This document shows positions 1-12,413 of a DNA stretch of 64,000 bases, piece after piece; the first letter of the stretch is position 1, and every line of letters starts with the position of its first letter. Position numbers and translations under genes: made by a program. Below the pieces are notes generated by a model. That model was given only the letters and a program-made list of their open reading frames with translations. It was not told where the DNA came from and did no database searches. The stretch lies in assembly GCA_015689735.1 (NCBI GenBank), contig WVSP01000004.1:62001-126000 (forward strand), read 5' to 3'. This stretch comes from Rhodobacterales bacterium LSUCC0031. Its GTDB lineage: Bacteria > Pseudomonadota > Alphaproteobacteria > Rhodobacterales > Rhodobacteraceae.

Positions 1-1
1 A

Positions 2-1150
2 TGGGTGTTCCGGTTCAGCTTGAAGGGCCAACCGCAGAGGGAAATGGGCATGGGCGCCTTCCCTGCCACCACGCTCGCCCAAGCGCGCCAGAAGGCGGCA
101 GCAGCGCGGGAGCTGATTGGCCAAGGGATTGACCCCATCGAGGCAGCGGCACGGGATGCCGCAGCTGCACGCGCAAAGTTGGATGCCGAAGCAGCGGAGG
201 TCACGACCTTCGGTCGATACGCCGAAGAGATTTTCCTGCCCACTGTCCTGCCCAACTTCAGCAATGCAGCGCACATCCAGCAGTGGAGGGCCACATTCCA
301 AACGCATGCCTCCAGCATAAGTGACATTCCGCTCACCGACATCACCCGCGAGCATATCTTGGGGGTGTTGAAGCCGATCTGGGTCGCCAAGAGCGTTACC
401 GCGAGCCGCAGCCGGGAGCGTATTGAACGGCTGTTCAGCCATGCAATCCAGAACGGGTTTTTCAGCGGCGACAATCCAGCTGCTTGGGTGCTGTTCAATG
501 CCACACTGCCGGCACCCCGCAAGCTCACCCGTGGCCATCACGCCAGCATTCCGCACGATGAGATCGCCCTCTTTATAGAAAAGCTACGAGGGCGGCAGTC
601 TGAGAGTACCGCGGCTCTAATGCTTGAATGGATCGTACTGTCTGCATGTCGAACAGGTGAAGCACGCTTCGCGACATGGGCCGAGGTGGACCTCGAAAGA
701 ATGGTTTGGGCTGTGCCAGCCGCGCGCATGAAGATGCGGCGTGACCATGTCGTACCAATTACCGCGCGGATGCTTGAGGTTCTCTTGGAAGCCAAAAAGC
801 GCCTCGGACGCCCCCACACCCCCAGCGATTGGCTGTTCCCCGGACCTCGGATTATCAAACCGCTGAGTGAGATGGCCGGCCTTCAGCAGCTGACGCGCAT
901 GGGGTACGGCCAATTCACGGTGCATGGAATGAGGGCCACATTTAAGGGCTGGGCTGCAACCTCCAGCGAGTTCCCCCGCGAACTGATAGAGGAACAGCTC
1001 GCGCACCAGCTCGGAACGGTGGAGCGGGCATACATGCGGGTCCATGCGGTGGAGCGCAGGCGTGCAATGATGGAAGCATGGGCCGCGCACCTTTCGGGAC
1101 ACGCCGCGGTCTCAAACGCCGACAACGTACTTCAGCTTCGTTCGCGTTGA
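2..1150 (+). CDS. P4-type tyrosine recombinase/integrase, 5' end cut by window edge
   Basis: Site-specific integrase of the DUF4102 (P4 integrase) type that would insert and excise the element. The reading frame is open from the first bases (W-V-F-R-F), so the true start lies upstream; the visible part is about 382 codons. The first 60 residues match the end of the DUF4102 N-terminal domain, followed by a SAM-like core-binding domain (about 65-165) and the catalytic domain. Counting from the GTG at 5, catalytic residues are visible: R216 (SACRTGE), H307 and R310 (HGMR), H334 and nucleophile Y343 (RAYMR). The recombinase therefore appears intact in its C-terminal part. An unknown gene follows 9 bp downstream. 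Confidence 0.93.
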   Translation, partial: WVFRFSLKGQPQREMGMGAFPATTLAQARQKAAAARELIGQGIDPIEAAARDAAAARAKLDAEAAEVTTFGRYAEEIFLPTVLPNFSNAAHIQQWRATFQTHASSISDIPLTDITREHILGVLKPIWVAKSVTASRSRERIERLFSHAIQNGFFSGDNPAAWVLFNATLPAPRKLTRGHHASIPHDEIALFIEKLRGRQSESTAALMLEWIVLSACRTGEARFATWAEVDLERMVWAVPAARMKMRRDHVVPITARMLEVLLEAKKRLGRPHTPSDWLFPGPRIIKPLSEMAGLQQLTRMGYGQFTVHGMRATFKGWAATSSEFPRELIEEQLAHQLGTVERAYMRVHAVERRRAMMEAWAAHLSGHAAVSNADNVLQLRSR

Positions 1151-1159
1151 GATCGCGTC

Positions 1160-1741
1160 ATGACGATGCCAAAGAGCTTCCAAGACGAACTGAGCAACCT
1201 CGACGAGTTATGGCTTGGCCGGCAAGCTGAGAACCAGTCACCTGAAGAACTGGCGGCTGAGGTAATCGGATACATTCTTGCCCGAGAGCAATTGCGCCAC
1301 CGCGTCAAGCCGGACACGCCAGCTTCAGCTGCAATAGACCAACGAACGCTTGCGATACTGGAAAAGCCAGACATGCTCGATCCAGCCCATTCTGTGTTCG
1401 AGGTCTTTATCCGACGGCTTTCACGGCACCCAGCAGATGCTATTCAGTATCTTACCAAACATGTTGAAGACCGGAGCGCAAAACTATCAAAAATTGCCCA
1501 GAACCCTCGTCCAAAAAGGCGAGATGAGATCATGGTGGCAATCTTTGATTGCCTGGAAGGCAACCCATCGGCGACCGCCAAAGAGGTCGGGGCATATCTC
1601 CGTGTCCATCCCAACATCCAATTGAGCGACGGTATCTACCGCCACGAGGGCGACGCTTCCACCATGCGCGAAGGGCTTTTAGATAAACGTGTATCTTCGG
1701 CAAGAAAAAGCTTAAGAAAATTTCGGGCTAACGGCCGTTAG
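1160..1741 (+). CDS. Unknown accessory protein following the integrase
   Basis: Protein of 193 residues that I do not recognise. It is hydrophilic, mainly predicted helical, with no signal peptide or membrane segment, and a basic C-terminus (RKSLRKFRANGR). A segment around residues 115-150 (DEIMVAIFDCLEGNPSATAKEVGAYL) looks like a winged-helix fragment, so a DNA-binding role is possible but not shown. It starts 9 bp after the integrase stop, so the two are probably co-transcribed. Its last codons contain part of the palindrome at 1727-1742, so that potential operator overlaps the gene's 3' end. ATG at 1160 is used; a second ATG follows at 1166. Confidence 0.6.
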   Translation: MTMPKSFQDELSNLDELWLGRQAENQSPEELAAEVIGYILAREQLRHRVKPDTPASAAIDQRTLAILEKPDMLDPAHSVFEVFIRRLSRHPADAIQYLTKHVEDRSAKLSKIAQNPRPKRRDEIMVAIFDCLEGNPSATAKEVGAYLRVHPNIQLSDGIYRHEGDASTMREGLLDKRVSSARKSLRKFRANGR

Positions 1742-1764
1742 CACGATTTCATTACCGTTAGCAC
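1727..1764. promoter_or_regulatory. Palindrome plus direct repeat of CCGTTAGC upstream of the HTH gene
   Basis: GCTAACGGCCGTTAGC at 1727-1742 is a perfect 16-bp palindrome. The right arm, extended as CCGTTAGCACG, is repeated at 1755-1765, exactly 20 bp (two helical turns) further on. The array ends 18 bp before the ATG at 1783 of the AlpA/excisionase-like gene. Further CCGTTAGC copies lie at 2037-2044 and 4024-4031. Helical phasing and position suggest binding sites for the HTH protein or for element replication; this role is inferred. Confidence 0.55.
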
Positions 1765-1782
1765 GTCCTCGTTCACTTGCGA

Positions 1783-1998
1783 ATGAGGACGAACATGCGC
1801 GAAAAACTTCCGCCCCCGAAACTGGCCTTCGGCATTAATGAGGCCGCTCACTCCCTGAGCGTGGGCCGAACGAAAATCTACTGTCTCATCAACGAAGGCG
1901 TTCTTAGGTCCATCAAGATCGGGGGGAGGCGCCTCGTTTGTGCCGAAAGCCTACACCAGTTGCTGAAAGCTAAGCAGCCGGGGTGCGCCAATGACTAA
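1783..1998 (+). CDS. AlpA/excisionase-like helix-turn-helix protein
   Basis: Small DNA-binding protein of the HTH_17/MerR-like excisionase family, 71 residues from ATG 1783 (67 from the ATG at 1795). The core shows the family pattern: a leading GINEAAHSLSVGRTKIYCLI helix-turn-helix followed by a short wing (GVLRSIKIGGRRLV). In P4-type elements and Gram-negative phage satellites such AlpA proteins activate excision and transcription. The palindrome and direct repeat immediately upstream (1727-1764) are candidate targets. Its 3' end overlaps the next gene by 8 bp, so translation is probably coupled. The exact start is uncertain. Confidence 0.82.
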   Translation: MRTNMREKLPPPKLAFGINEAAHSLSVGRTKIYCLINEGVLRSIKIGGRRLVCAESLHQLLKAKQPGCAND

Positions 1999-2317
1999 AG
2001 CACACGCTGTAGCACCGCATTTGGCACACCGATGCACCGTTAGCGGCCCGCACCGCGAAACCGACGACAACTACACGCATATCGTCGCGCGCCTGAACGA
2101 CCGCTATCGAGTCATCCGGTGCAAAGACGACATCCAATCGATCATCCAAAAGCGTGATGGCTTCCGGAATGGGCAATCAAGGTGGGTGGGGAGCAGCTAT
2201 TGCTTGCAACCAGAAACTGTCTACCGGCTAGTTCTCAAGCACTGCGGCATCGTTGATGCTGCTGAGCTTGAAAAGGTTCAAAGCCTAAGTCGGGGGAGCG
2301 AGTGTCATGACCGCTGA
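1991..2317 (+). CDS. Small unknown protein of the element
   Basis: Protein of 108 residues overlapping the HTH gene by 8 bp and the primase-polymerase gene by 11 bp, which places it in one operon with both. I do not recognise a named domain. The middle (RYRVIRCKDDIQSIIQKR, then WVGSSYC) resembles short orphan proteins that often accompany integrases and primases in alphaproteobacterial elements, but I cannot assign a function. There is no signal peptide or membrane segment. A CCGTTAGC copy lies inside its coding sequence at 2037. Confidence 0.6.
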   Translation: MTKAHAVAPHLAHRCTVSGPHRETDDNYTHIVARLNDRYRVIRCKDDIQSIIQKRDGFRNGQSRWVGSSYCLQPETVYRLVLKHCGIVDAAELEKVQSLSRGSECHDR

Positions 2318-3377
2318 CCCCAACAGCCGGCAAGACCAGTTGATCGCCGAGCTGCACCGACTGCGCGGCATGGGACTGGAAGTGGTGCCAGTTTCAGAGA
2401 AACAGGCGTTGGTACCCTTCAAGGACCGCCCTTCTCTTCCAACAAGCAAAATTGAGGCGTTCATCAGGGATGGCGAAGCAACAGGCCTTGGCCTGCGCCT
2501 CGGCGGCTTGACCGTGATCGATATTGATGTCCCCGACCCATCGTGGGTAACGAAGGCAGAGGCGCGGTTCGGCAAGACAGACGTGCGGGTGCGTACGCCA
2601 TCCGGCGGCATTCACCTTTATTATGCGGGGCAGCTTGACCACCCACCAAACCTGAAGTCCGAAGGCTGGCCCGTCGACTTCAAGACTGGCCGCAACCAAT
2701 ATGTTGTGACCAGTGCGTCTTGGCGGGCGGATGGACGTTCTTACCGGGTCGAAGGCTCTGCCATTGCAGCAGGCGCGCTGCCACCAATCCGAGACAATGA
2801 AGCCGCCTCCACGCCGATACGCCACCGACAGCAAGGTGCCGCCAAGTCAAAGTCATCGGCGGCACCGGACGCGGTGGTGGCTGTAGGTCAGCGCCATGAC
2901 TACCTAGTTGGCCGTGGCAAGCTTCTCGCCAGAAATGCCAAATCCGAGAGCGAACTTCTGGACGCGCTGAGGCGCGTGTTCGAAGCAGAATGTGACAAGT
3001 CCACTCCTCTCGAAACCGGTGAATTGGAAGGGATCGCAGAGTGGTGCTGGAACCTTCAACAGAAGGGTCTGAACTTCGTCCCGGGCGAAAGTTACGTGAG
3101 CATGCCGCGGTGGGTGATGGAGGCGTTACGCGGCAATAGCCGCGCGCAGCACCTCGCCTTAGTCATCTACCAGCTCCATGGCGGTCAACCTGGCAAGGCA
3201 TTCTGCCTTGACCATAAGGGCATGCGTGATGCCGGATGGACAGACCTCGGCAGAGATGGTTTCCGCAGCGCCTTAGGGGCGCTGCTCAATGCAGGTGTTA
3301 TCTCAGTGCAAAAACAATATGTGCGAGCTGAAAAGAAAACTCGATTCAAGCTCTCCCCAAAACCCCACAGCCTCTAG
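2307..3377 (+). CDS. Primase-polymerase (Prim-Pol) replication protein
   Basis: Bifunctional DNA primase/polymerase-like protein of 356 residues, expected to start replication of the element. The N-terminal Prim-Pol domain spans about residues 1-160 and carries the metal-binding hDhD motif (D72, D74 in VIDIDVPD), the sxH motif (H103 in GGIHLYY) and a third acidic residue (D124 in VDFKTGR). Residues 170-250 are a linker; the C-terminal part (about 255-350) looks like a winged-helix DNA-binding module. No helicase domain is attached. A strong Shine-Dalgarno (GGGGGAG, 2292-2298) precedes the ATG. It closes the forward operon of the element. Confidence 0.82.
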   Translation: MTADPNSRQDQLIAELHRLRGMGLEVVPVSEKQALVPFKDRPSLPTSKIEAFIRDGEATGLGLRLGGLTVIDIDVPDPSWVTKAEARFGKTDVRVRTPSGGIHLYYAGQLDHPPNLKSEGWPVDFKTGRNQYVVTSASWRADGRSYRVEGSAIAAGALPPIRDNEAASTPIRHRQQGAAKSKSSAAPDAVVAVGQRHDYLVGRGKLLARNAKSESELLDALRRVFEAECDKSTPLETGELEGIAEWCWNLQQKGLNFVPGESYVSMPRWVMEALRGNSRAQHLALVIYQLHGGQPGKAFCLDHKGMRDAGWTDLGRDGFRSALGALLNAGVISVQKQYVRAEKKTRFKLSPKPHSL

Positions 3378-3671
3378 TCTTACTATTAGCATACGGATTT
3401 CCGTTCGTTGTGTGTGGAAGTGCCGGTGGAGCGGGCGGAGACCCGCGAAATACAGGAGGACACCCCTGACCTTCAGATGGGCGCCGGCCGGTGGTTGCGG
3501 CGCCTCTGGTGCCTGTCTGCTCGCATCCGCAGCCACAGAGTGATTAGTATCTGACATAAGGATCGAGGCCCGTCGAAAGCAATGGGAGTGCCGGTGCAGC
3601 GGGCTGCTTGCCAAGCCGATGGGTGGTATGCCCGCGACAGATGATGCCGGCCTACCGGCGGTTGCAGGCGC
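3378..3671. other. Non-coding gap between primase and terS with an imperfect repeat
   Basis: No convincing gene is seen between these convergent genes. An 18-bp sequence, AGTGCCGGTGGAGCGGGC at 3419-3436, recurs with one mismatch at 3587-3604. The first copy also holds a small hairpin (GCGGG/CCCGC, 3431-3446). Such repeats could belong to a replication origin or packaging site of the element, but nothing in the sequence proves it. Confidence 0.4.
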
Positions 3672-4259
3672 TCAAATACCGATGGACGCGTCGGGGGCAT
3701 TATACGAATACAGCGCCAGCCTCTGGCGGATCGCGATCTCGATTTCATCTGCGGACCGGTCGGTGACATCGGCCGTTTCGATGCGCTCGACGAACATACC
3801 AAGATGCTTGGCGATCAGCTCCAAGTTTCGCGTACGGACGGCTGGCGGGATTTCCTCGATGCGGATCACTGGGTTCCCGTCTGCATCAATCTCGCGATGC
3901 ACAATCTTGGGTTGTGCAAGCTGCTTCCATCCCTCAACCACGAACTGCGACAGGCAGGCCGCCTGCATGCGCCGTTCATCCTCTTTCTGCGCGGCAAGCT
4001 GCTGTAACCTTGCTCTCACCTTACCGTTAGCCGCCAATTGAGATGCTCTGGCCCAGATTGTGGCATCAGCCATTGCTGCAGCATCGTATACTGCGCGATA
4101 TGCAGTGCTAAAATTTGCACCTGCAATGATTTCTTGTGCAAAAGATTCCTGCTTTTCGGTCAGCCCCGTCTCAGGGTTAGCCGCGGACCGGCTCTTCTTG
4201 ATCGGTTCGACGGCCGGCAGTACCTCGAAATTTGGTTGAAACGACGCGACAGACTTCAT
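3672..4259 (-). CDS. Terminase small subunit-like protein (TerS)
   Basis: DNA-packaging recognition protein of the Terminase_2 type, 195 residues from the ATG at 4259. The typical core is visible at about residues 35-100: LTEKQESFAQEII, then AYRAVYDAA and SQLAANGKVRARLQQL. The C-terminal stretch RNLELIAKHLGMFVER is common in TerS proteins. A longer in-frame reading to 4634 exists, but the ATG at 4259 has a good Shine-Dalgarno (GGAGG, spacing about 6) and an AT-rich promoter-like region behind it. No large terminase follows, which fits a satellite that redirects a helper phage's packaging motor. It lies opposite to the replication operon. Confidence 0.72.
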   Translation of the reverse strand: MKSVASFQPNFEVLPAVEPIKKSRSAANPETGLTEKQESFAQEIIAGANFSTAYRAVYDAAAMADATIWARASQLAANGKVRARLQQLAAQKEDERRMQAACLSQFVVEGWKQLAQPKIVHREIDADGNPVIRIEEIPPAVRTRNLELIAKHLGMFVERIETADVTDRSADEIEIAIRQRLALYSYNAPDASIGI

Positions 4260-4277
4260 GCGGCACCTCCACTTATT

Positions 4278-4290
4278 GTTATAATATAAC
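4278..4290 (-). promoter_or_regulatory. AT-rich palindrome upstream of terS
   Basis: GTTATA-A-TATAAC is a perfect inverted repeat around one base, 18 bp upstream of the terS ATG and next to its Shine-Dalgarno. It sits in the only strongly AT-rich stretch of this region. It may act as the -10 region and/or a repressor operator for terS; the function is inferred. Confidence 0.4.
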
Positions 4291-4393
4291 ATAATTAAGG
4301 TGGAGAGTGAACCATGGCGTAGTCGCGCCGCTGGCACCGGTAAAAGTGCAGATGCACTTTCGGCATAGCCGGTGCGTTTCGCCCGGCGTTCGG

Positions 4394-4677
4394 TCAGAAA
4401 CGACCTTTGTAAAGCGTGAAGAACATATAGCCGAACGATGCGAACCAAAGCAGCGCAGCAGGCCCTGAGAGGGCCTCTGGCGCGCCGGGATGAATGAAAA
4501 ACACCGGCAGCATGATAAGCAAAACGAAGGCCACCAGCTGGCGCTTTGTGAGCATCTCGGTCAGGCGCCGGATGTTTCCGCAATGCGGGCATTGCCGTGA
4601 CCGCCCGGAGATGCCTTTTCCACAAGCTGGGCATGGCGTGATGCCGTCACGCGTCAGGGGGCGCGGTTGGGCGCCAT
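4394..4677 (-). CDS. Small zinc-ribbon membrane protein with a frame disruption near its 5' end
   Basis: The minus strand encodes about 90 residues: a zinc ribbon with two CPxCG knuckles (CPACG and CPHCG, ten residues between them), then two membrane segments (VAFVLLIMLPVFFI and AALLWFASFGYMFF) and the end KGRF. No ATG is in this frame. An ATG with an excellent Shine-Dalgarno (AAGGA, 4675-4677) reads M-A-P-N-R-A-P and stops. It would be in frame if the run of five C (4657-4661) had six. This is either a one-base deletion, a sequence error, a translational frameshift, or a CTG start. Function unknown; it lies between the terS and lyase-like genes on the same strand. Confidence 0.6.
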
Positions 4678-4906
4678 CCCCTTTCCTTCACCACACGACA
4701 TCTATCCCTTAAACTTGTTGAGAGCGTCACGGCAGCGTCGCCCCTCGACCCGTCGCTTGTGCAAGACGATGCGAACCAGAAGACCTGCCACATAAAGGCA
4801 TCAATAATTAACGAAGCAACCAGCGTGACAAAATAAAACGCTGTTTCTAACGCCTATGGAAAAAGACAGTCTAAACTTGCACTATTAAATTCTGTCGTGA
4901 CGTAAA

Positions 4907-7429
4907 CTACTTGAACTCAACTGATCCAGCCGCTCGCATCCAAGCATAAAGCTGCGTTTCGACAGTTAGCGGCATAGGCCTAGTAAAGATGCAATCAACG
5001 AGCTCTTGCCACGAACGATCTTCATAATTGATTGGAATGTCCAAAACATTCGCATCTATTTCATGATTTGCACTGCAGCGACGTTGTGCCTCACGCAAAT
5101 AACGAAAAAATTCAGGGTTCTCCCAACTCAATCGATCAAACTCAAGGCCCAACGAAATGCCACCTGTGTCGTTTCTGTAGAAATTGAGGGTTCCAAAAAA
5201 AACTGTATCCCCATCGTCATTCTGTACCTCAACCCAAACGCGATATTTTGTATCTCCATTTCTGATGGTGACTGTTTCTGTAATTTCATATGATTCAAGA
5301 AACAAACCAAGATCAACAGCGCCAGAAAAGTATTCGTTAAACCAACGCGTCTGATCAATATTTAAAGAATTTTGAAAAGTCACTTCTCCGCGACTTTCCT
5401 CCACTCTGACTTCATTAAAATTTTCGTTCAAAAAATTAGAAATGAACAAGATCACATTGTAGATTTCTAGCGCACCAAGATCATCTGAAAAGGCTGCAAG
5501 GCAGTCCATTATCCTTTCAAAACCGTACTCGCGAAAATCGATCGGAACGTCTATTGTATCGCCATCAGGGACCTCAAGAACATTACATTCATTCTGAACT
5601 GCAATCCACGCATTTTGAAAACTTGCATTACTTTCAAGAAGCCAGCCCAAGTCTATAGTAAGCTTGTGCAGACCATTTGCATCTTCCACCAAAGTTACGC
5701 TATCATTGAAAATTAATTGGCCCGTTCGATTGTCTATGACAGAAAGAGTTACTCTATACCTATTCCGACCAAAAATATCCGATCTGGAAGCGCCCGTAGA
5801 TAAATCTAATACTGAGAAAATGCTGAGGTCAGATTTTCTAATCGCGCCTCTGAACCAATCACTCATCTCTTGCATTTCTTCATTAGACCAATCCTCAGAA
5901 ATTATACGATCGCTTTCTGTCAATAGGCTGATATTAGCGTTGAATATCTCAAACGGAGTAATTGAGAAGTACCCCTCACCTATGAAATGATCCGCTTCGA
6001 TCTCATTATATCCAATTCGCTCAATCAAGTTTGGGTAATAGGTCGATATAAACTGAGTTGCCCAATTTGCAACTCTGCTCTCTGTGGGAATTTGTGGATG
6101 ATCAATTGAGCCAACCGCATTAATCAGAAATTCGTTATGGGTTGCATAGGGCGAGCGCCCACATCCAGATGCTCCGATCCCTTTCTCTGCAATATGGTTT
6201 GAAATGGTTACATCATTATACTGCTGCAGCAAACGTTCATACGCTTCGTGAACATGACTGCCGTGACGCGTTTGATAACTCAAAAGATCAAATCCAGCGA
6301 CTTTCAAAATTTCAACATTCATCGAAAAAAGTTTACTAGTATCCCATAAGTAGCCGAGGGCAAAGCAGCCTTTCGCAGAAGTTGGAACGAAGAAACCATC
6401 TGTGTCAATCATGCTCAATGTATATTCTAAATCCCATAGACCTTTTGCCCACAACGCTTCGTTTTGCGTAACAATGGCTAGAGCCAACTCTGCAGCAGCA
6501 AATCTTAGACGAACAGTTCCACAGTTATTTACTCTGTGTATACTTTCGGATAACTCAGAGGGCTGATATATCGGGCAGTTTAAAATTCGCCCGTCGCCAT
6601 CTAATTCGAATCGCTCTATCAGTGCCTTTCTGATAAAAAATTGCTGTATCGTTTCATGTTGGCTATCAGAAAGGTCAAATTCATCAATATTAACAGCATA
6701 AAAGGTTATAAACGGCGCTAAAATTCCCGGCAAATGATAATAACTAGGGTTACTATCTTTGCCATCTCCATGCCGCGGAATCCAACGGTCTTCCTCAGCG
6801 GATGCCATTGCCAAAAAAAGATTACCAAATTTTTCAATACCATCATCAAAATTTACAATTGCATTTCTAGTATAGTACGACTGACACCGAACAAGGTCCT
6901 GTTCTTTTTGACTCGGGGTCGAAGTGATTTCAAAATTCAAGAGTATCTCAAAGCATCGTTCTTGATTTAATATCTCACCACTCACCCCCAACCCACTCCA
7001 TAGTTTCGAAACATAGGCATGGTTATAACGATACCTGTTCTCACGGTAGCTTCTATATCGCCCGTAATCATTTAATATTCTATTGGTATCCGGGAGCCGC
7101 ACGCGCAACAGCTCACTACCTTGCAAGTGTGAATCAAAATATTGAAGAGCCTCTATACTAAAGATGGACAGCTCAGTATTTTCAACAATCCCATCAAGAA
7201 TTAATTCATTTTCTTTTGGAATTTCTTTGCCTTTGCCTTGAAAGAATTCAATAACGGCTTGATTTGTATTTGGCCCCCAAATTCCGTCGGCCACCCCCGC
7301 GTTATATCCGAAATAATTTAACGAATTTTGTATCGCCCGCGTGGTCTCATCAGCGATAGTAGGAGATGCCACACTGATCGATGTAGCGAAAGAAATTATG
7401 AAAAGGAATTTATACATTTCGTCATCCAA
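4907..7429 (-). CDS. Secreted protein with peptidoglycan-binding domain and alginate-lyase-like region
   Basis: Large exported protein of 840 residues (836 from the second ATG at 7417, which gives a cleaner signal peptide, MYKFLFIISFATSISVASP). Residues about 30-65 form a peptidoglycan-binding_1 repeat (LNYFGYNAGVADGIWGPNT). The middle, about 285-420, resembles the alpha/alpha-toroid of alginate lyases: NNCG, a helix with an AELALAI core, then IDTDGFFVP, GCFALGYLWDTSKL and a G-F-D-L-L-S-Y segment. Catalytic residues could not be assigned. The C-terminal 300 residues are unrecognised. The gene is visibly AT-rich, unlike all its neighbours, a strong sign of recent transfer. It may degrade an acidic polysaccharide; this is inferred. 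Confidence 0.6.
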   Translation of the reverse strand: MDDEMYKFLFIISFATSISVASPTIADETTRAIQNSLNYFGYNAGVADGIWGPNTNQAVIEFFQGKGKEIPKENELILDGIVENTELSIFSIEALQYFDSHLQGSELLRVRLPDTNRILNDYGRYRSYRENRYRYNHAYVSKLWSGLGVSGEILNQERCFEILLNFEITSTPSQKEQDLVRCQSYYTRNAIVNFDDGIEKFGNLFLAMASAEEDRWIPRHGDGKDSNPSYYHLPGILAPFITFYAVNIDEFDLSDSQHETIQQFFIRKALIERFELDGDGRILNCPIYQPSELSESIHRVNNCGTVRLRFAAAELALAIVTQNEALWAKGLWDLEYTLSMIDTDGFFVPTSAKGCFALGYLWDTSKLFSMNVEILKVAGFDLLSYQTRHGSHVHEAYERLLQQYNDVTISNHIAEKGIGASGCGRSPYATHNEFLINAVGSIDHPQIPTESRVANWATQFISTYYPNLIERIGYNEIEADHFIGEGYFSITPFEIFNANISLLTESDRIISEDWSNEEMQEMSDWFRGAIRKSDLSIFSVLDLSTGASRSDIFGRNRYRVTLSVIDNRTGQLIFNDSVTLVEDANGLHKLTIDLGWLLESNASFQNAWIAVQNECNVLEVPDGDTIDVPIDFREYGFERIMDCLAAFSDDLGALEIYNVILFISNFLNENFNEVRVEESRGEVTFQNSLNIDQTRWFNEYFSGAVDLGLFLESYEITETVTIRNGDTKYRVWVEVQNDDGDTVFFGTLNFYRNDTGGISLGLEFDRLSWENPEFFRYLREAQRRCSANHEIDANVLDIPINYEDRSWQELVDCIFTRPMPLTVETQLYAWMRAAGSVEFK

Positions 7430-7742
7430 TCCATGCTAACAGTCTCCATGTGGCGTTGAGCCTGTTTCAATGATTGCTTGAACCAGCCAGTGGGACAAGC
7501 TCTTTTTTGGTAGAGCGACGCCTTTGCAGTAAAAGCGGGCTGGAGTCGGACGGATAGGTCGGCGACGGGATTGCGTCGGAACCTTTCAGACCATGAGACA
7601 GAGCTGTACTTTCGATTTTATTTGTGGCATGGGTCACATTCATTCGTGGAGCGTGCCATCCGATTGAGTACATGGAAGGTGCCGGTCAGGTCATTCTGGG
7701 CGCGCACCAACACACCTTCGATAGTCGGAGTAGACCAGCGTC
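7430..7742. other. Gap between lyase-like gene and IS3 element
   Basis: No supported gene is seen. The first 30 bases hold the Shine-Dalgarno (GGAGA) and probable promoter of the minus-strand lyase-like gene. The remainder returns to higher GC and is probably scrambled remnant DNA next to the IS. Confidence 0.4.
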
Positions 7743-7768
7743 TGAGCTGCTCCCCGAAAATCGGACAG
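7743..7768 (+). repeat. Left terminal inverted repeat of the IS3 element
   Basis: Begins TGAGCTGCTCCCC and ends GGACAG. It pairs with the reverse complement of 9002-9027, where the equivalent parts read TGAGCTACTCCCC and GGACAG. Confidence 0.85.
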
Positions 7769-7823
7769 TGACGTAAGCTACGATCTGACGTCTGCTGGTC
7801 TCCGAGAACGAGGAGATCAGACT

Positions 7824-8156
7824 ATGAAGAAACGCAGGAACCACGACGCTGGGTTCAAAGCCCGTGTGGCGCTGGAAGCCGTGAAGGGCGAGCGCACGGT
7901 GTCGGAGCTGGCCGCCGAATACGGTGTGCATCCGACGATGATCCATCAATGGAAGAAGTCCCTCTTGGATGGCGCGGCCGACATCTTTGAACGGGTCGGC
8001 AGGAGAGCGCCCGAGATCGACGAGGAAACGGTGCGGTCGCTGCATGCCAAGATCGGGGAGCTGGCTGTGGCCAACGAACCGAAGGTCCGCGAAGCGATCT
8101 TTTGTCCAGAAAGCTCAAGCCTTGGACCGGCAGGTGAGGCGCGAGATGATCGATAA
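7824..8156 (+). CDS. IS3 transposase OrfA, C-terminus altered by a 20-bp insertion
   Basis: HTH protein that binds the IS ends and is normally joined to OrfB by -1 frameshifting. Residues 1-90 are the standard IS3 OrfA (MKKRRNHDAGFKARVALEAV, then ELAAEYGVHPTMIHQWKK). From residue 86 the sequence departs from the family. Removing 20 bases (8078-8097, between AACGA and TCTTTTG) restores the expected ending NDLLSRKLKPWTGR and a stop, and also restores the -1 frame relation to orfB. As it stands, orfB is in the +1 frame, so a full OrfAB transposase cannot be made by the usual route. Confidence 0.88.
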   Translation: MKKRRNHDAGFKARVALEAVKGERTVSELAAEYGVHPTMIHQWKKSLLDGAADIFERVGRRAPEIDEETVRSLHAKIGELAVANEPKVREAIFCPESSSLGPAGEARDDR

Positions 8157-8988
8157 GAACCATCCAAGCCTGTCAGTTGGGGCGCAATGCCGTCTGCTGT
8201 CGATCTCACGCTCGTCGTTTTACTACGAGCTGATGGGCGAGACGGCGATGAACCTCGACCTCATGGTGGTGATCGACAAGCAGTTCCTCGAAACGCCGTT
8301 TTACGGCGTCCAGCAGATGACATGGCACCTGCGGAACGATGGTCATGTCGTGAACTACAAGCGCATTCGTCGACTGATGCGGCTTATGCGCCTGATGCCG
8401 ATCTACCAGAAGCCCGACACCAGCCGGCCAGCAAAGGGGCATAAGACCTACCCCTATCTGCTCGGCGGACTGCGGGTCGATAGGCCCAATCAGGTCTGGT
8501 GCGCTGACATCACCTACATCCCGATGCGCCGTGGCTTCCTCTATCTGGTTGCCATCATGGACTGGTATACCCGGAAGGTGCTGACCTGGCGGATATCGAA
8601 CACGCTGGAAGCCGACTTCTGTGTGGAGGCTTTGAACGAGGCCATCCACAGGTTCGGCCCGCCCGAGATCATGAACACCGATCAGGGGTCTCAGTTCACA
8701 TCATTCGCCTGGGCGGACCGGCTGAAAAGGGTCGGCACCCGGATCTCGATGGATGGCAAAGGGCGCTGCATCGACAATATCTTCATCGAGCGGCTGTGGC
8801 GGTCCCTGAAGTATGAATGCGTCTATCTGCACGCCTGGGAAACGGGATCGCAGGCTCGGGTTGGCATCGGGCGCTGGATCACCTTCTACAACCACCAACG
8901 CCCTCACACTGCCCATGGCGGTCAACCGCCCGCCGTGGTCTACTTCAACACCATCGAAACCGATCAGCCGGTGCAGGCAGTAGCTTAA
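8146..8988 (+). CDS. IS3 transposase OrfB (DDE catalytic subunit)
   Basis: Integrase-core transposase of about 280 residues, read from the first in-frame ATG (MIDKNHPSLSV). In the living element it would be made as the C-terminal part of an OrfAB fusion. It has the HTH_21 region (SISRSSFYYE), then the rve domain with the catalytic triad D121 (WCADITY), D179 (NTDQGSQF) and E215 (ERLWRSLKYE), 35 residues separating the last two as in IS3. The C-terminus (FYNHQRPHTAHGG) is complete. The protein itself seems intact, but the frame relation with orfA is broken. Confidence 0.9.
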   Translation: MIDKNHPSLSVGAQCRLLSISRSSFYYELMGETAMNLDLMVVIDKQFLETPFYGVQQMTWHLRNDGHVVNYKRIRRLMRLMRLMPIYQKPDTSRPAKGHKTYPYLLGGLRVDRPNQVWCADITYIPMRRGFLYLVAIMDWYTRKVLTWRISNTLEADFCVEALNEAIHRFGPPEIMNTDQGSQFTSFAWADRLKRVGTRISMDGKGRCIDNIFIERLWRSLKYECVYLHAWETGSQARVGIGRWITFYNHQRPHTAHGGQPPAVVYFNTIETDQPVQAVA

Positions 8989-9001
8989 ATTACCCGGAAA
9001 C

Positions 9002-9027
9002 CTGTCCAAGAGTTGGGGAGTAGCTCA
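9002..9027 (-). repeat. Right terminal inverted repeat of the IS3 element
   Basis: The reverse complement begins TGAGCTACTCCCC and ends GGACAG, matching the left end at 7743-7768. The 13-bp outer part differs at one position. Confidence 0.85.
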
Positions 9028-9028
9028 C

Positions 9029-9226
9029 ATTTCTACAAAGCGCCTTCGCAAGAAGGCACGCAAGTTAGGACTGAAGCTTTCTGTACGGAAAGGTATGTTC
9101 CAAGTGTTCGAATACTGCGCAGAACATGATTTCTGGCAGCCAGTTGAAGAATGCTGGGGGCAAATGCCGTACAGTCTGTTCCCCCAAGATGTCGAAGACA
9201 TATTGAAGGACAGGCTTCAGGCCTAA
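9029..9226 (+). pseudogene. Gene remnant truncated by the IS3 element
   Basis: The reading frame is open from the IS right border to a TAA at 9224, giving 65 residues (I-S-T-K-R-L-R-K-K-A-R...). The protein is credible: a basic start, then VFEYCAEHDFWQPVEECWG and FPQDVEDILKDRL, and it ends just before a good terminator. No start codon is present before residue 24. The IS most likely removed the original start. I do not recognise the family. Confidence 0.55.
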
Positions 9227-9234
9227 CGAAAAGG

Positions 9235-9269
9235 CCCTCTCGGCTGAAAAGCTGGGAGGGTTCTTTTTT
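9235..9269 (+). terminator. Rho-independent terminator
   Basis: Stem CCCTC/GAGGG with an inner GCT/AGC pair around a GAAA-type loop, followed by TTCTTTTTT. It lies 9 bp after the stop of the truncated gene, which supports that remnant being a real gene end. Confidence 0.75.
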
Positions 9270-9460
9270 GCCGATGCAAACTTAAGGGGTTGATCTCCTC
9301 TTGACCAAACCCGCGACTGTCTCCATCCATGTGCCATCATCAAGAGTTGAGCTGTCGCTCACACCAACCTGCCCGACCGGCAAGGTGGTTCCCGAAAGGG
9401 GATGTGGCCAAAAGGCAAATATGGGTCGCATGTGACATCAGCTCTCTACAGGAGAGCATC

Positions 9461-9934
9461 ATGGAATACCTTCATCCATCCATCGAGAAACTCATGGCCA
9501 CAGCCCCTACAGGCGCCGTTGCAGCCGCTATCGGGCGTGATGCGTCGCTGACCGTCCAACTTGATCCCTTCGCCGGCGTCCGGCTGTCTGTGAGCGTGGA
9601 AGGCCAGCCCAGAAGCCTGATCATCGGTCGGTGGGATGACTGCGCAGAGGCCGTGCTGGACTTGCTCCATGCCAATCGGGCAGCGGCGTTCCTGTTCTTC
9701 ACAGACGCGCCTAAAGGGCGCCCGTTTGCTTTCTTGGACCTGTGCCGCGAGAAGAAGTGGCATTTTGAGCGCGCAATGATCCTGCGCAGCGACAGCATGT
9801 TCCACCATGGGGAGGCGTTCATCATCCCGTGGATCAGCCTGACCGAGGCCGACGGCATCGCATACAAGTTCGGCATGCCCGCGTTCATTTACATAGAGCG
9901 AGGGCTGCCGGTGAGGTTGGCGGTCACCGGGTGA
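9461..9934 (+). CDS. Unknown protein of the accessory region
   Basis: Protein of 157 residues from the ATG at 9461, chosen because of the strong Shine-Dalgarno AGGAG six bases upstream; a longer frame from 9329 lacks such a signal. It has no signal peptide or membrane segment. The sequence is a mix of alpha and beta pattern (LIIGRWDDCAEAVLDLLHAN, then AAFLFFTDAPKG and FIIPWISLTEADGIAYKFG). I cannot assign it to a family. It is the last gene before the tRNA border and stands alone. Confidence 0.55.
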   Translation: MEYLHPSIEKLMATAPTGAVAAAIGRDASLTVQLDPFAGVRLSVSVEGQPRSLIIGRWDDCAEAVLDLLHANRAAAFLFFTDAPKGRPFAFLDLCREKKWHFERAMILRSDSMFHHGEAFIIPWISLTEADGIAYKFGMPAFIYIERGLPVRLAVTG

Positions 9935-10244
9935 GCAGAATACCACGTAAGGTGAACCTGACGGCCATTGCTCAATTTGGGGAGTATCCCCCGGGTGGGG
10001 TCTGGAAAGGGTGCTGTCAGAAAGAAAGGGGTGGCTTAGTGTTTCATGCATTGCCGCGCTTGGCACTCCAGCGCCCACGGAGTTGGGCCGAGTCACAGCC
10101 CTAAAGCGACAATGTTCTAACGCTGGTAAGCCAATGGCTCCCAATGAAGGGCTGTGTTCCATGTCTGACAGCAGAGCGAATTTAGGGGCTGACTAGGGGC
10201 TGAAAGCAAAAATCCCCATTAAGTAACTGAAATTTATGGATATG
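9935..10244. other. Non-coding stretch between accessory region and tRNA-Ser
   Basis: No gene is supported. TAGGGGCTGA is repeated in tandem at 10183-10192 and 10194-10203 (11-bp period), about 45 bp from the tRNA 3' end. If the tRNA is the attachment site, these could be integrase arm-type sites; this is only suggestive. Confidence 0.4.
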
Positions 10245-10334
10245 TGGCGGAGACGAAGGGATTCGAACCCTCGAGACGGTTTCCCGCCTACTCCCTTAGC
10301 AGGGGAGCGCCTTCGACCACTCGGCCACGTCTCC
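10245..10334 (-). tRNA. tRNA-Ser (anticodon GCU)
   Basis: The minus strand folds as a class II tRNA of 90 bases including the encoded CCA. The acceptor arm GGAGACG pairs with CGTCTCC; the anticodon stem-loop CTCCCCTGCTAAGGGAG gives anticodon GCU; a long variable arm is typical of serine tRNAs; the T arm has GGTTCGAATCC. Its 3' end points at the accessory region, so it is a plausible attachment site. Confidence 0.96.
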
Positions 10335-10384
10335 GCCGACCCGTCTAATCGCCCCATCGTGCGGGGACAAGCACAAAACCACTT

Positions 10385-11482
10385 TCACGCGTTGAAGAGG
10401 AAGTGCAAAACGTCGCCGTCCTTGACCTCGTAGGTCTTACCTTCGACGCGCATTTTGCCTGCGTCTTTTGCACCGGTCTCGCCGTTCAGGGCGATGTAGT
10501 CATCATAGGCGATGGTCTCGGCACGGATAAAGCCGCGTTCGAAATCGCCGTGGATGACGCCCGCGGCCTGCGGGGCCAGGGTGCCGCGGCGGATCGTCCA
10601 TGCGCGCGCCTCCTTGGGGCCGACGGTGAAATAGGTCTGTAGCCCCAAAAGCGCGTAGCCCGCGCGGATCAAACGATCCAGCCCCGGTTCCTCCAGCCCC
10701 ATTTCGGACAGGAACAGCGCGGCCTCTTCGGGGTCGAGCTGGGCGATTTCCTCTTCGATTTGGGCCGATATTACGACATGAGCCGCACCTTGGGCGGCGG
10801 CCATCTCGGCCACGCGGGCCGATTGCGCATTACCTGTCGCAGCTGCGGCTTCCTCGACATTGCAGACATACAAGATCGGCTTGGTGGTCAAAAGTTGCAG
10901 CATACGCCACGCTTTTTGATCCTCGTCAGCGACGGCAAGCAGACGGGCAGGCTTGCCCTCTTCCAACAGCGCCTTGGCCGCTTGCATCAAGCGTTCTTGC
11001 TGAACCGCTTCCTTATCGCCGCCGCGGATCTTGCGGGTGATGTTCTGGAGCCGCTTCTCGATCGACTCCAAATCGGCCAGCATCAACTCGGTCTCGATCG
11101 TCTCGGCATCGGCGATGGGATCGATGCGGCCTTCGACATGGGTGATGTCGCCATCCTCGAAACAGCGCAGAACATGGGCAATTGCGTCGGTTTCACGGAT
11201 ATTGGCGAGGAATTGGTTGCCAAGCCCCTCGCCCTTGGAGGCACCCTTCACCAGCCCCGCAATATCGACGAATGTCATGCGGGTGGGAATGATCTGTTTC
11301 GATGCGGCGATACCGGCAAGCTTTGTCAGGCGCGCGTCAGGCACCGCCACATCGCCGACATTGGGCTCGATCGTGCAGAACGGGAAATTCGCCGCTTGTG
11401 CAGCAGCCGTCCGGGTCAGCGCATTGAACAGCGTTGACTTGCCCACATTCGGCAGCCCGACAATTCCCATCTTGAAGCCCAT
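10385..11482 (-). CDS. ychF: Redox-regulated GTPase/ATPase YchF
   Basis: Universally conserved Obg-family P-loop NTPase that associates with ribosomes; bacterial members preferentially hydrolyse ATP. It has 365 residues from the ATG at 11482, the usual length; a further ATG at 11491 would lie directly on the ribosome-binding AAGGG. The P-loop is [12 protein letters not shown] near the N-terminus; a coiled-coil region follows in the middle ([17 protein letters not shown]) and the C-terminal TGS domain ends in [12 protein letters not shown]. First core gene after the tRNA; it is divergent from trpA. Confidence 0.97.
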
Positions 11483-11621
11483 GACACGCATCCCTTTGCA
11501 TGAAAACGCCCCCCTTTACGGCGCGCCGCCGCAAGGGGCAACCACGCGCAAGGCACCGCCCCATTGATTTCCGCGCGCCTATGGCCCAAACCCGGCGCGG
11601 ATATCATATGCGGGGGCGCCC

Positions 11622-12413
11622 ATGACACGGATCGACGATACTTTTGCGCGACTAAAGGCCGAAGGCAAAAAGGCTTTCGTGGCCTATGTCATGGCTGGCG
11701 ATCCCGACTACGCCACATCGCTCGACATCGTGAAGGCACTGCCGGCTGCGGGTGTCGATATCATCGAGCTGGGCATGCCCTTCACCGACCCGATGGCCGA
11801 TGGCGAGACAATCCAGCTTGCTGGACAGCGCGCGCTCGAAGGGGGACAGACGCTTGACAAGACGCTCCAGATCGCGCGCGAATTGCGCAAAGGCGACGAC
11901 AAAACGCCCATCGTGATGATGGGCTATTACAACCCGATCTATTCCCGCGGCATTGATACCTTCTTGGCGCAGGCCAAGCAGGCCGGGATCGACGGGCTGA
12001 TCATCGTCGATCTCCCGCCCGAGGAAGATGACGAATTGTGCATCCCCGCGCAGAAGGCGGGTCTGAATTTCATCCGGCTGGCGACCCCCACCACCGATGC
12101 CAAACGCCTTCCTAAGGTGCTGCAAAACACGAGCGGTTTCGTTTACTACGTCTCCATCACCGGGATTACAGGTGCCGCCGAGGCGGACGCAGCGCAAGTC
12201 GCCCCCGAAGTCGCCCGCATCAAGGCCGCGACAGACCTGCCGGTGATTGTGGGCTTTGGCATCAAGACGCCAGAGGCGGCGCAATCCATCGCTGCAATCG
12301 CCGATGGCTGTGTGGTGGGTTCGGCCATCGTGTCACAGATCGCCGCCAGAAAGCCCGTGGGCGAGATCACGAATTTCGTCGCAGGGCTGGCGGCGGGTGC
12401 GCATCGCGCCTGA
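11622..12413 (+). CDS. trpA: Tryptophan synthase alpha subunit
   Basis: Cleaves indole-3-glycerol phosphate to indole and glyceraldehyde-3-phosphate, the step before TrpB in tryptophan synthesis. It has 263 residues, a TIM barrel with the family signature around the catalytic glutamate ([15 protein letters not shown]), the GYYNPI loop and the phosphate-binding glycines ([11 protein letters not shown] near residue 212). trpB is not next to it in this window. The gene stands alone between the divergent ychF and the convergent DUF1992 gene. Confidence 0.97.

Follow-up and report, generated by a model that had tools for sequence, protein, structure and literature searches.

What controls alpA in a small satellite element integrated in the genome of Rhodobacterales bacterium LSUCC0031? 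The question is raised by a 64,000-nucleotide stretch of contig WVSP01000004.1 (positions 62,001 to 126,000; hereafter the window), in which an 8-mer, CCGTTAGC, recurs directly in front of alpA (1795-1998, + strand), a gene for a 67-aa DNA-binding protein of the helix-turn-helix (HTH) and excisionase families (Pfam HTH_17, 3.9e-9; TIGR01764, 3.6e-9). Upstream lie the integrase gene int and orf2 (1160-1741, + strand), an orphan open reading frame (ORF) of 193 aa, and downstream lie orf4 and a primase-polymerase (Prim-Pol) gene. We propose that a transcriptional operator plus a translational lock sit at the boundary between int-orf2 and alpA of a satellite resembling phage-inducible chromosomal islands (PICIs) and phage-inducible chromosomal minimalist islands (PICMIs). 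We hold this reading at about even odds (probability roughly 0.5). Positions, boundaries, gene order, the predicted stability of a leader hairpin and the excess pairing of the Shine-Dalgarno sequence (SD) in alpA leaders of relatives were computed directly.

In the proposed circuit, a repeat cluster at 1723-1765 would be the operator of an alpA-orf4-PrimPol operon. An element protein, the orf2 product or AlpA, would bind its three half-sites and control transcription of this early operon. A hairpin predicted at 1764-1791 would bury the alpA ribosome-binding site and so form a second, translational lock. With the site buried, transcripts reading through from int-orf2 should therefore yield little AlpA, whereas AlpA would be made from a transcript whose start falls within the left hairpin arm or beyond it, or if a factor opened the hairpin. 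Binding, promoter, regulator, operon and the timing of hairpin opening are the parts of this circuit that we infer.

The repeat cluster at the orf2-alpA boundary

Five copies of CCGTTAGC are present in the window, at 1727 (- strand), 1735, 1755, 2037 and 4024, compared with a mean of 1.11 and a maximum of 4 in 100 shuffled windows. The copies at 1727 and 1735 form the half-sites GCTAACGG and CCGTTAGC of a 24-bp near-palindrome (1723-1746), of which the core at 1727-1742 is an exact palindrome. A third half-site, CCGTTAGCACG (1755-1765, + strand), follows the 1735 copy at a distance of 20 bp, and the same 11-mer is found exactly at both places. The original prediction had listed the five copies, the 16-bp palindrome and the shared 11-mer 20 bp apart before the HTH gene, and each of these was confirmed. 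The cluster overlaps the orf2 stop codon, which falls inside the palindrome, and lies upstream of alpA. The compactness of the palindrome with its third half-site two helical turns off, and the place of the cluster between int-orf2 and alpA-orf4-PrimPol, support an operator.

That the copy number far exceeds chance, as had been claimed, held only in part. When the 10,607-bp element was shuffled 500 times, CCGTTAGC never reached five copies (mean 0.252, maximum 3; at least two in 2.2%), but some 8-mer did so in 190 of 200 shuffles, and the five-copy count by itself is thus weak. A 16-bp palindrome appeared in 29 of 200 shuffles and 19 of 200 had a close 11-mer repeat, while a palindrome accompanied by another half-site no more than 60 nt away was found in just 2 of 2000. 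The triple is therefore unlikely to be due to chance, whereas the two outlying copies could be.

The outlying copies probably lie outside the proposed operator and may be chance occurrences. The fourth (2037-2044, + strand) is within orf4 and its function is uncertain. The fifth (4024-4031, + strand) is within the terminase small subunit gene terS, which runs on the opposite strand and there encodes A-N-G-K. Across four homologous stretches from three loci, the N and a basic residue are found again and the G is not; this copy is probably coding.

CCGTTAGC had been described as limited to the element, which is incorrect, as 27 of its 32 copies in the 2.98-Mb genome lie outside it, albeit at a density of only about one per 110 kb. 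One further adjacent pair of half-sites exists in the genome, at C2:604765-604780 (L010 7765-7780), in the reversed order CCGTTAGC then GCTAACGG. A host-regulator reading of the cluster was set aside because this sole other pair has the opposite order and lies 5' of a gene recognised by eye as zwf. We take its palindrome to resemble an ordinary host LacI-type operator.

The alpA leader in the window and in relatives

The predicted hairpin (1764-1791, + strand) begins directly after the third half-site. Its arms, 1764-1774 and 1781-1791, contain one G-U pair, and the 3' arm carries the alpA ribosome-binding site. The folding energy was -20 kcal/mol for 51 nt (z -3.59), the unpaired probability of the SD was 0.00 and a duplex shuffle test gave p 0.02.

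An AlpA profile run on loci drawn by orf4 and Prim-Pol searches supplied 36 further alpA leaders, giving 37 with that of the window. Their mean folding z was -2.10, against -0.18 for host genes (n = 107; p = 1.5e-12), -0.83 for orf4 (n = 19), -0.19 for int (n = 13) and -0.85 for PrimPol (n = 6). The unpaired probability of the SD also separated alpA from host genes (p 0.0034) and from orf4 (p 0.018). In a duplex test on dereplicated leaders, the SD stretch was kept fixed and the upstream letters were shuffled, with a cutoff of p<0.05. Excess pairing was found in 14 of 34 alpA leaders (Fisher 1.3e-10) compared with 3 of 107 host genes (0.69), 1 of 13 int leaders (0.18) and none of the six PrimPol leaders (0.17). 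The remaining 20 of the 34 alpA leaders were individually unremarkable, and the letters of the stem vary between elements.

Hairpins that sequester ribosome-binding sites guard against read-through transcripts, for example in phage T4 late genes and insertion sequence (IS) elements. Common to these and the structure described here is an SD within a stem just 5' of the start codon; the difference is that none is reported for alpA in the open-licence papers searched. By that search, an SD-burying RNA lock on alpA is apparently new to the literature. Rfam gave no match at E <=5 in 20 stretches including the window leader. Scans elsewhere (window 1-12000 and relatives) returned tRNAs and two SAM-I/IV riboswitches, and sub-threshold matches to RF04351, over the tRNA of the window, and to chrB-b; none of these fell at the leader. 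We take the int-alpA RNA to be an Rfam family of an int-alpA gap. Judged by a name that places it between int and alpA, it is possibly the same kind of control, but it differs in that the window leader has no Rfam match. The family name is given in Table 3 of PMC12370729.

The closest AlpA proteins (32-40% identity over the alignment) belong to another element type, in which alpA lies between an upstream gene of ~272 aa and a downstream gene of ~140 aa. This sister clade comprises loci L104-L118 and 33 of L120-L161 (e.g. L128 5059-6183). Its leaders carry two direct TGGNNN repeats (R1 and R2) 11 bp apart at the upstream stop codon, an inverted copy (R3) and an SD hairpin, and the NNN differs among elements. 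Fifteen leaders are in register without gaps over 118 columns, and sets of 22 and 15 over the last 48. Hairpin pairs were kept in 80.5% (22 sequences) and 92.7% (15 sequences) of cells, compared with 22-50% when the pairing was slid. The leaders of L104 and L122 (Litorivita pollutaquae) are identical, as are those of L105 and L121 (Octadecabacter ascidiaceicola).

Covariation was examined in a set of 37 sister loci, made up of 33 of 42 that had the leader plus four added. L134, L135, L138, L147, L151, L152, L156, L159 and L160 were dropped, and the start of L131 was taken at an ATG three bases upstream. The scan itself used 34 of the 37, leaving out L106, L140 and L146 for want of an upstream or downstream ORF. 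Letter 3 of the triplet in R2, the non-coding repeat, tracks one residue that lies in the upstream protein's C-terminal helix (z 8.9, 1.28 bits; 34 loci, uncorrected for kinship). This was the top column not overlapping the repeats; column 285 tied for first place and was discounted because it overlaps R1. Arginine goes mostly with xTC (TCC or TCT in two), aspartate with xCA or ACG, serine with TCA (ATA once), alanine or glycine with ATG or ATA, threonine and lysine with ATC, tyrosine with TCT and asparagine with TTT. For AlpA and the downstream protein, the highest-scoring columns (z 8.2, 0.28 bits, and z 7.9, 0.36 bits, respectively) seem to mark a single subclade. This kinship-uncorrected covariation suggests that the sister operator is read by the product of the upstream gene.

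The proposal that the cluster is an AlpA operator, part of the original prediction, has support in part. Placement at the orf2 stop and alpA leader favours it, as does the analogous, differently spelled three-repeat operator of the sister clade, but the reader there seems to be the upstream gene's protein and not AlpA. Orf2 as reader of CCGTTAGC would be an analogy by position only, because no homology between orf2 and the sister upstream protein was detected and no close element relative was found. AlpA itself is also a possible reader; in EcCICFT073, AlpA activates its own expression, according to passages of PMC6092414.

Weighing the proposed circuit

Several results weigh against the combination of operator and lock. 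The CCGTTAGC cluster was present in none of 23 wide relative loci, two of which hold a single stray copy. The original prediction had named such lack of conservation as refuting; every relative found is distant (best protein identities about 38-51%), so that the absence of the letters there is not decisive. The + strand near the cluster shows no promoter-like site. The unpaired probability of the SD did not separate alpA from int (p 0.53) or PrimPol (p 0.83), orf4 leaders also showed excess pairing in the duplex test (4 of 15, Fisher 0.0068), and the E. coli K-12 alpA leader has no comparable hairpin (p 0.47). In the sister clade alone only 2 of 9 dereplicated leaders passed the duplex test (Fisher 0.11), and hairpin pairs with two-sided changes were no more frequent than in column shuffles, of which 318/500 and 104/500 reached the observed number (cells 11/500 and 121/500). 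Relatedness among the sister loci counts against the covariation argument, and the column-mean z did not favour the upstream protein (0.80, compared with 1.00 for AlpA and 0.87 for the downstream protein). Window orf2 was rejected as a homolog of the sister upstream protein: hmmsearch did not list it at E 100 and hhalign gave a probability of 0.3%.

Two alternatives give the repeats no operator role. They may act as RNA only, with GCTAACGG at 1727 pairing with the copy at 1735 or 1755 to form alternative stems in an orf2-alpA transcript. Both folds are predicted, in a longer and a shorter stretch, and in the sister clade the inverted R3 largely follows R2 as a stem would need. The same signal is, however, expected from a DNA dyad, and the direct copy R1 mostly matches R2 too, which pairing does not need. 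The SD hairpin moreover persists beside the palindrome stem when the whole 1700-1810 region is folded. We consider an RNA-only role unlikely, if worth keeping in view. The cluster might instead be a chance pattern or a functionless evolutionary leftover. The motif was picked post hoc from a sequence whose shuffles so often bring some 8-mer to five copies, and the relatives examined show no letter conservation; against this stand the rarity of the joint palindrome and third half-site in shuffles and the placement of the cluster at an expected regulatory boundary, which make this reading unlikely.

The remaining two alternatives had been offered in the original prediction and place the repeats in recombination or replication. 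A 20-bp spacing of direct repeats would fit an Xis-like protein, and AlpA, which matches TIGR01764 ('excise'), could be an excisionase with the half-sites as its binding sites in excision. In PICMI115, expression of alpA induced excision and left satellite gene expression unaltered, as passages of PMC10803314 report. The half-sites are, however, separated from the attachment (att) cores by ~2.1 kb on the left and ~8.5 kb on the right. No CCGTTAGC with one mismatch or fewer lies between the left core and 1727; rightward, single-mismatch copies lie at 4963, 7435, 9527 and 9722, the last being the nearest to the right core, ~0.5 kb off. The element ends carry AGGGGCTGA repeats instead, two per end with one more in the rest of the window: a pair 11 bp apart at 10184-10203 (+ strand), with a matching pair at the left end (-203, -192). 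These repeats are candidate integrase arm sites. An excisionase acting at att through CCGTTAGC is therefore disfavoured, and we regard it as quite unlikely. The proximity of a primase gene could likewise suggest iterons of a Prim-Pol replication origin, but the cluster is upstream of alpA, and the PICI layout puts the origin after pri-rep, according to passages of PMC6092414. The gap behind Prim-Pol (3378-3671) has no CCGTTAGC and holds a different 22-bp direct repeat (3415-3436 and 3583-3604, 91%), a candidate origin or packaging site that would make a better origin than the CCGTTAGC cluster. The iteron reading is therefore disfavoured as well, and is very unlikely.

An operator with a translational lock may also extend beyond the window. 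In such a family-wide, two-layer switch, the upstream gene's protein would read an element-specific operator overlapping its own stop codon and an SD-burying hairpin would block AlpA synthesis from read-through transcripts, while operator and reader would change together and give each element a private specificity. We regard this generalisation as doubtful at present.

The satellite and its relatives

The element is an integrated 10.6-kb satellite of PICI/PICMI-like type with the gene order int-orf2-alpA-orf4-PrimPol...terS. It spans 10,607 bp and is bounded by 14-bp cores, TGGCGGAGACGAAG. The right core (10245-10258) is the 3' end of tRNA-Ser(gct), and the left (L009 9652) lies 349 bases left of the window. 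The integrase, a tyrosine recombinase (1-1150, + strand; Pfam Phage_integrase and Arm-DNA-bind_3), has its start codon 116 bases left of the window (L009 ORF 9885-11150). The genes of alpA, orf4 (1991-2317, + strand; a small protein of 108 aa, mainly within the same bacterial family) and Prim-Pol (2307-3377, + strand; 356 aa, Pfam PF09250, 4.9e-12) overlap, and terS (3672-4259, - strand) matches Pfam Terminase_2 (2.5e-6) and PHROG 51 (5.2e-21). No capsid, tail or large terminase was found among the 10 proteins scanned with Pfam and PHROGs. In six relatives checked for att cores, L071 and L072 have 15-bp cores with TGGCGGA at tRNA 3' ends, L030 a 16-bp repeat beside a tRNA and L069 a 13-bp repeat with no tRNA link; no core was found in L036 or L037.

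Further genes are carried within the element. An 840-aa cargo protein (4907-7429; low GC content, 41%) has peptidoglycan-binding and alginate-lyase matches in Pfam and a PHROG endolysin match (1.5e-5) over its peptidoglycan-binding part. A transposase-type gene (HTH_Tnp_1) and a second ORF resembling an IS3 transposase by eye occupy 7824-8988. A SAM-I/IV riboswitch lies at 9332-9432 (65.9 bits); the gene behind it has no match in Pfam or PADLOC and no relative in L069, where a second SAM-I/IV riboswitch is found 3' of terS (10837-10938, 57.8 bits). In the sister clade, a further scan of L128 (Jannaschia seohaensis) identified a tyrosine recombinase followed by the defence genes ZorA and ZorB (8706-11719; E 6.7e-272 and 7.7e-102).

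Searches for relatives of the element used its individual proteins. The orf2 product has no match in Pfam, PHROGs, NCBIfam or PADLOC, and its single-sequence AlphaFold model was too poor to use (mean predicted local distance difference test score, pLDDT, 49). A search of 390 genomes of the order gave orf2 matches in 49, its own included, at E <=0.1; these were not trusted as homologs, the best outside match having an E of only 0.0015. By contrast, orf4 was found in 28 of the 390, and in 2 of 385 genomes drawn from the class (its own included in both counts), where the other copy has internal stops. It marks a set of int-orf2-alpA-orf4 elements that includes L036, L037 and L069-L082 and others. 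An initial orf4 alignment proved too diverse to scan with; a closer one was used instead and picked up a single viral contig, in which the gene context differs. No orf4 relatives were found in plasmids and phages. Close relatives of the element were absent from viral contigs when sought by Prim-Pol, orf4, alpA or the 19-letter palindrome pattern, and from genome contigs and phages when sought by Prim-Pol, while plasmids gave two distant matches only (31% and 28% identity).

Among known satellites, Gram-negative PICIs such as EcCICFT073 share with this element a left-end integrase, an alpA regulator, a primase or replication gene and terS. PICIs carry no phage structural or lysis module; here the scanned proteins include no capsid, tail or large terminase, but the 840-aa cargo protein has the endolysin match given above. 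The element differs in two additional genes, one separating int from alpA and the other, orf4, separating alpA from the primase gene, and in its PF09250 Prim-Pol. No PICI for comparison turned up at guessed coordinates in E. coli CFT073. The PICI traits found here are an integrase with a specific att site, an AlpA-type regulator downstream of int, and terS; as for the iteron origin that follows the primase or rep gene in PICIs, Prim-Pol is followed here only by the two-copy 22-bp repeat. With PICMIs of Vibrionaceae the element shares small size and the order int, gene of unknown function, alpA, small gene, primase, as passages of PMC10803314 describe them. The PICMI model in those passages has DUF3987/DUF5906 primases and a fis site, whereas the primase of this element matches only PF09250, its att site is in tRNA-Ser instead of downstream of fis, and it carries terS. 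Integration at fis is optional in one passage of that paper and mandatory in another.

Taken together, this is an element of a known kind that carries a probable operator where one would be expected, and a predicted RNA lock on alpA that seems new to the literature searched. Gram-negative PICIs and PICMIs are switched on by AlpA. In PICMIs, alpA-up1-prim is a phage-activated early regulon, and passages of PMC10803314 state as open the route by which a helper phage activates alpA. The locus offers a defined sequence where the int side meets the alpA operon, namely a proposed three-half-site operator and a predicted SD hairpin. If confirmed, these would define a specific circuit controlling satellites of this family, demonstrate translational control of AlpA and hint at a function for the unexplained gene that separates int from alpA.

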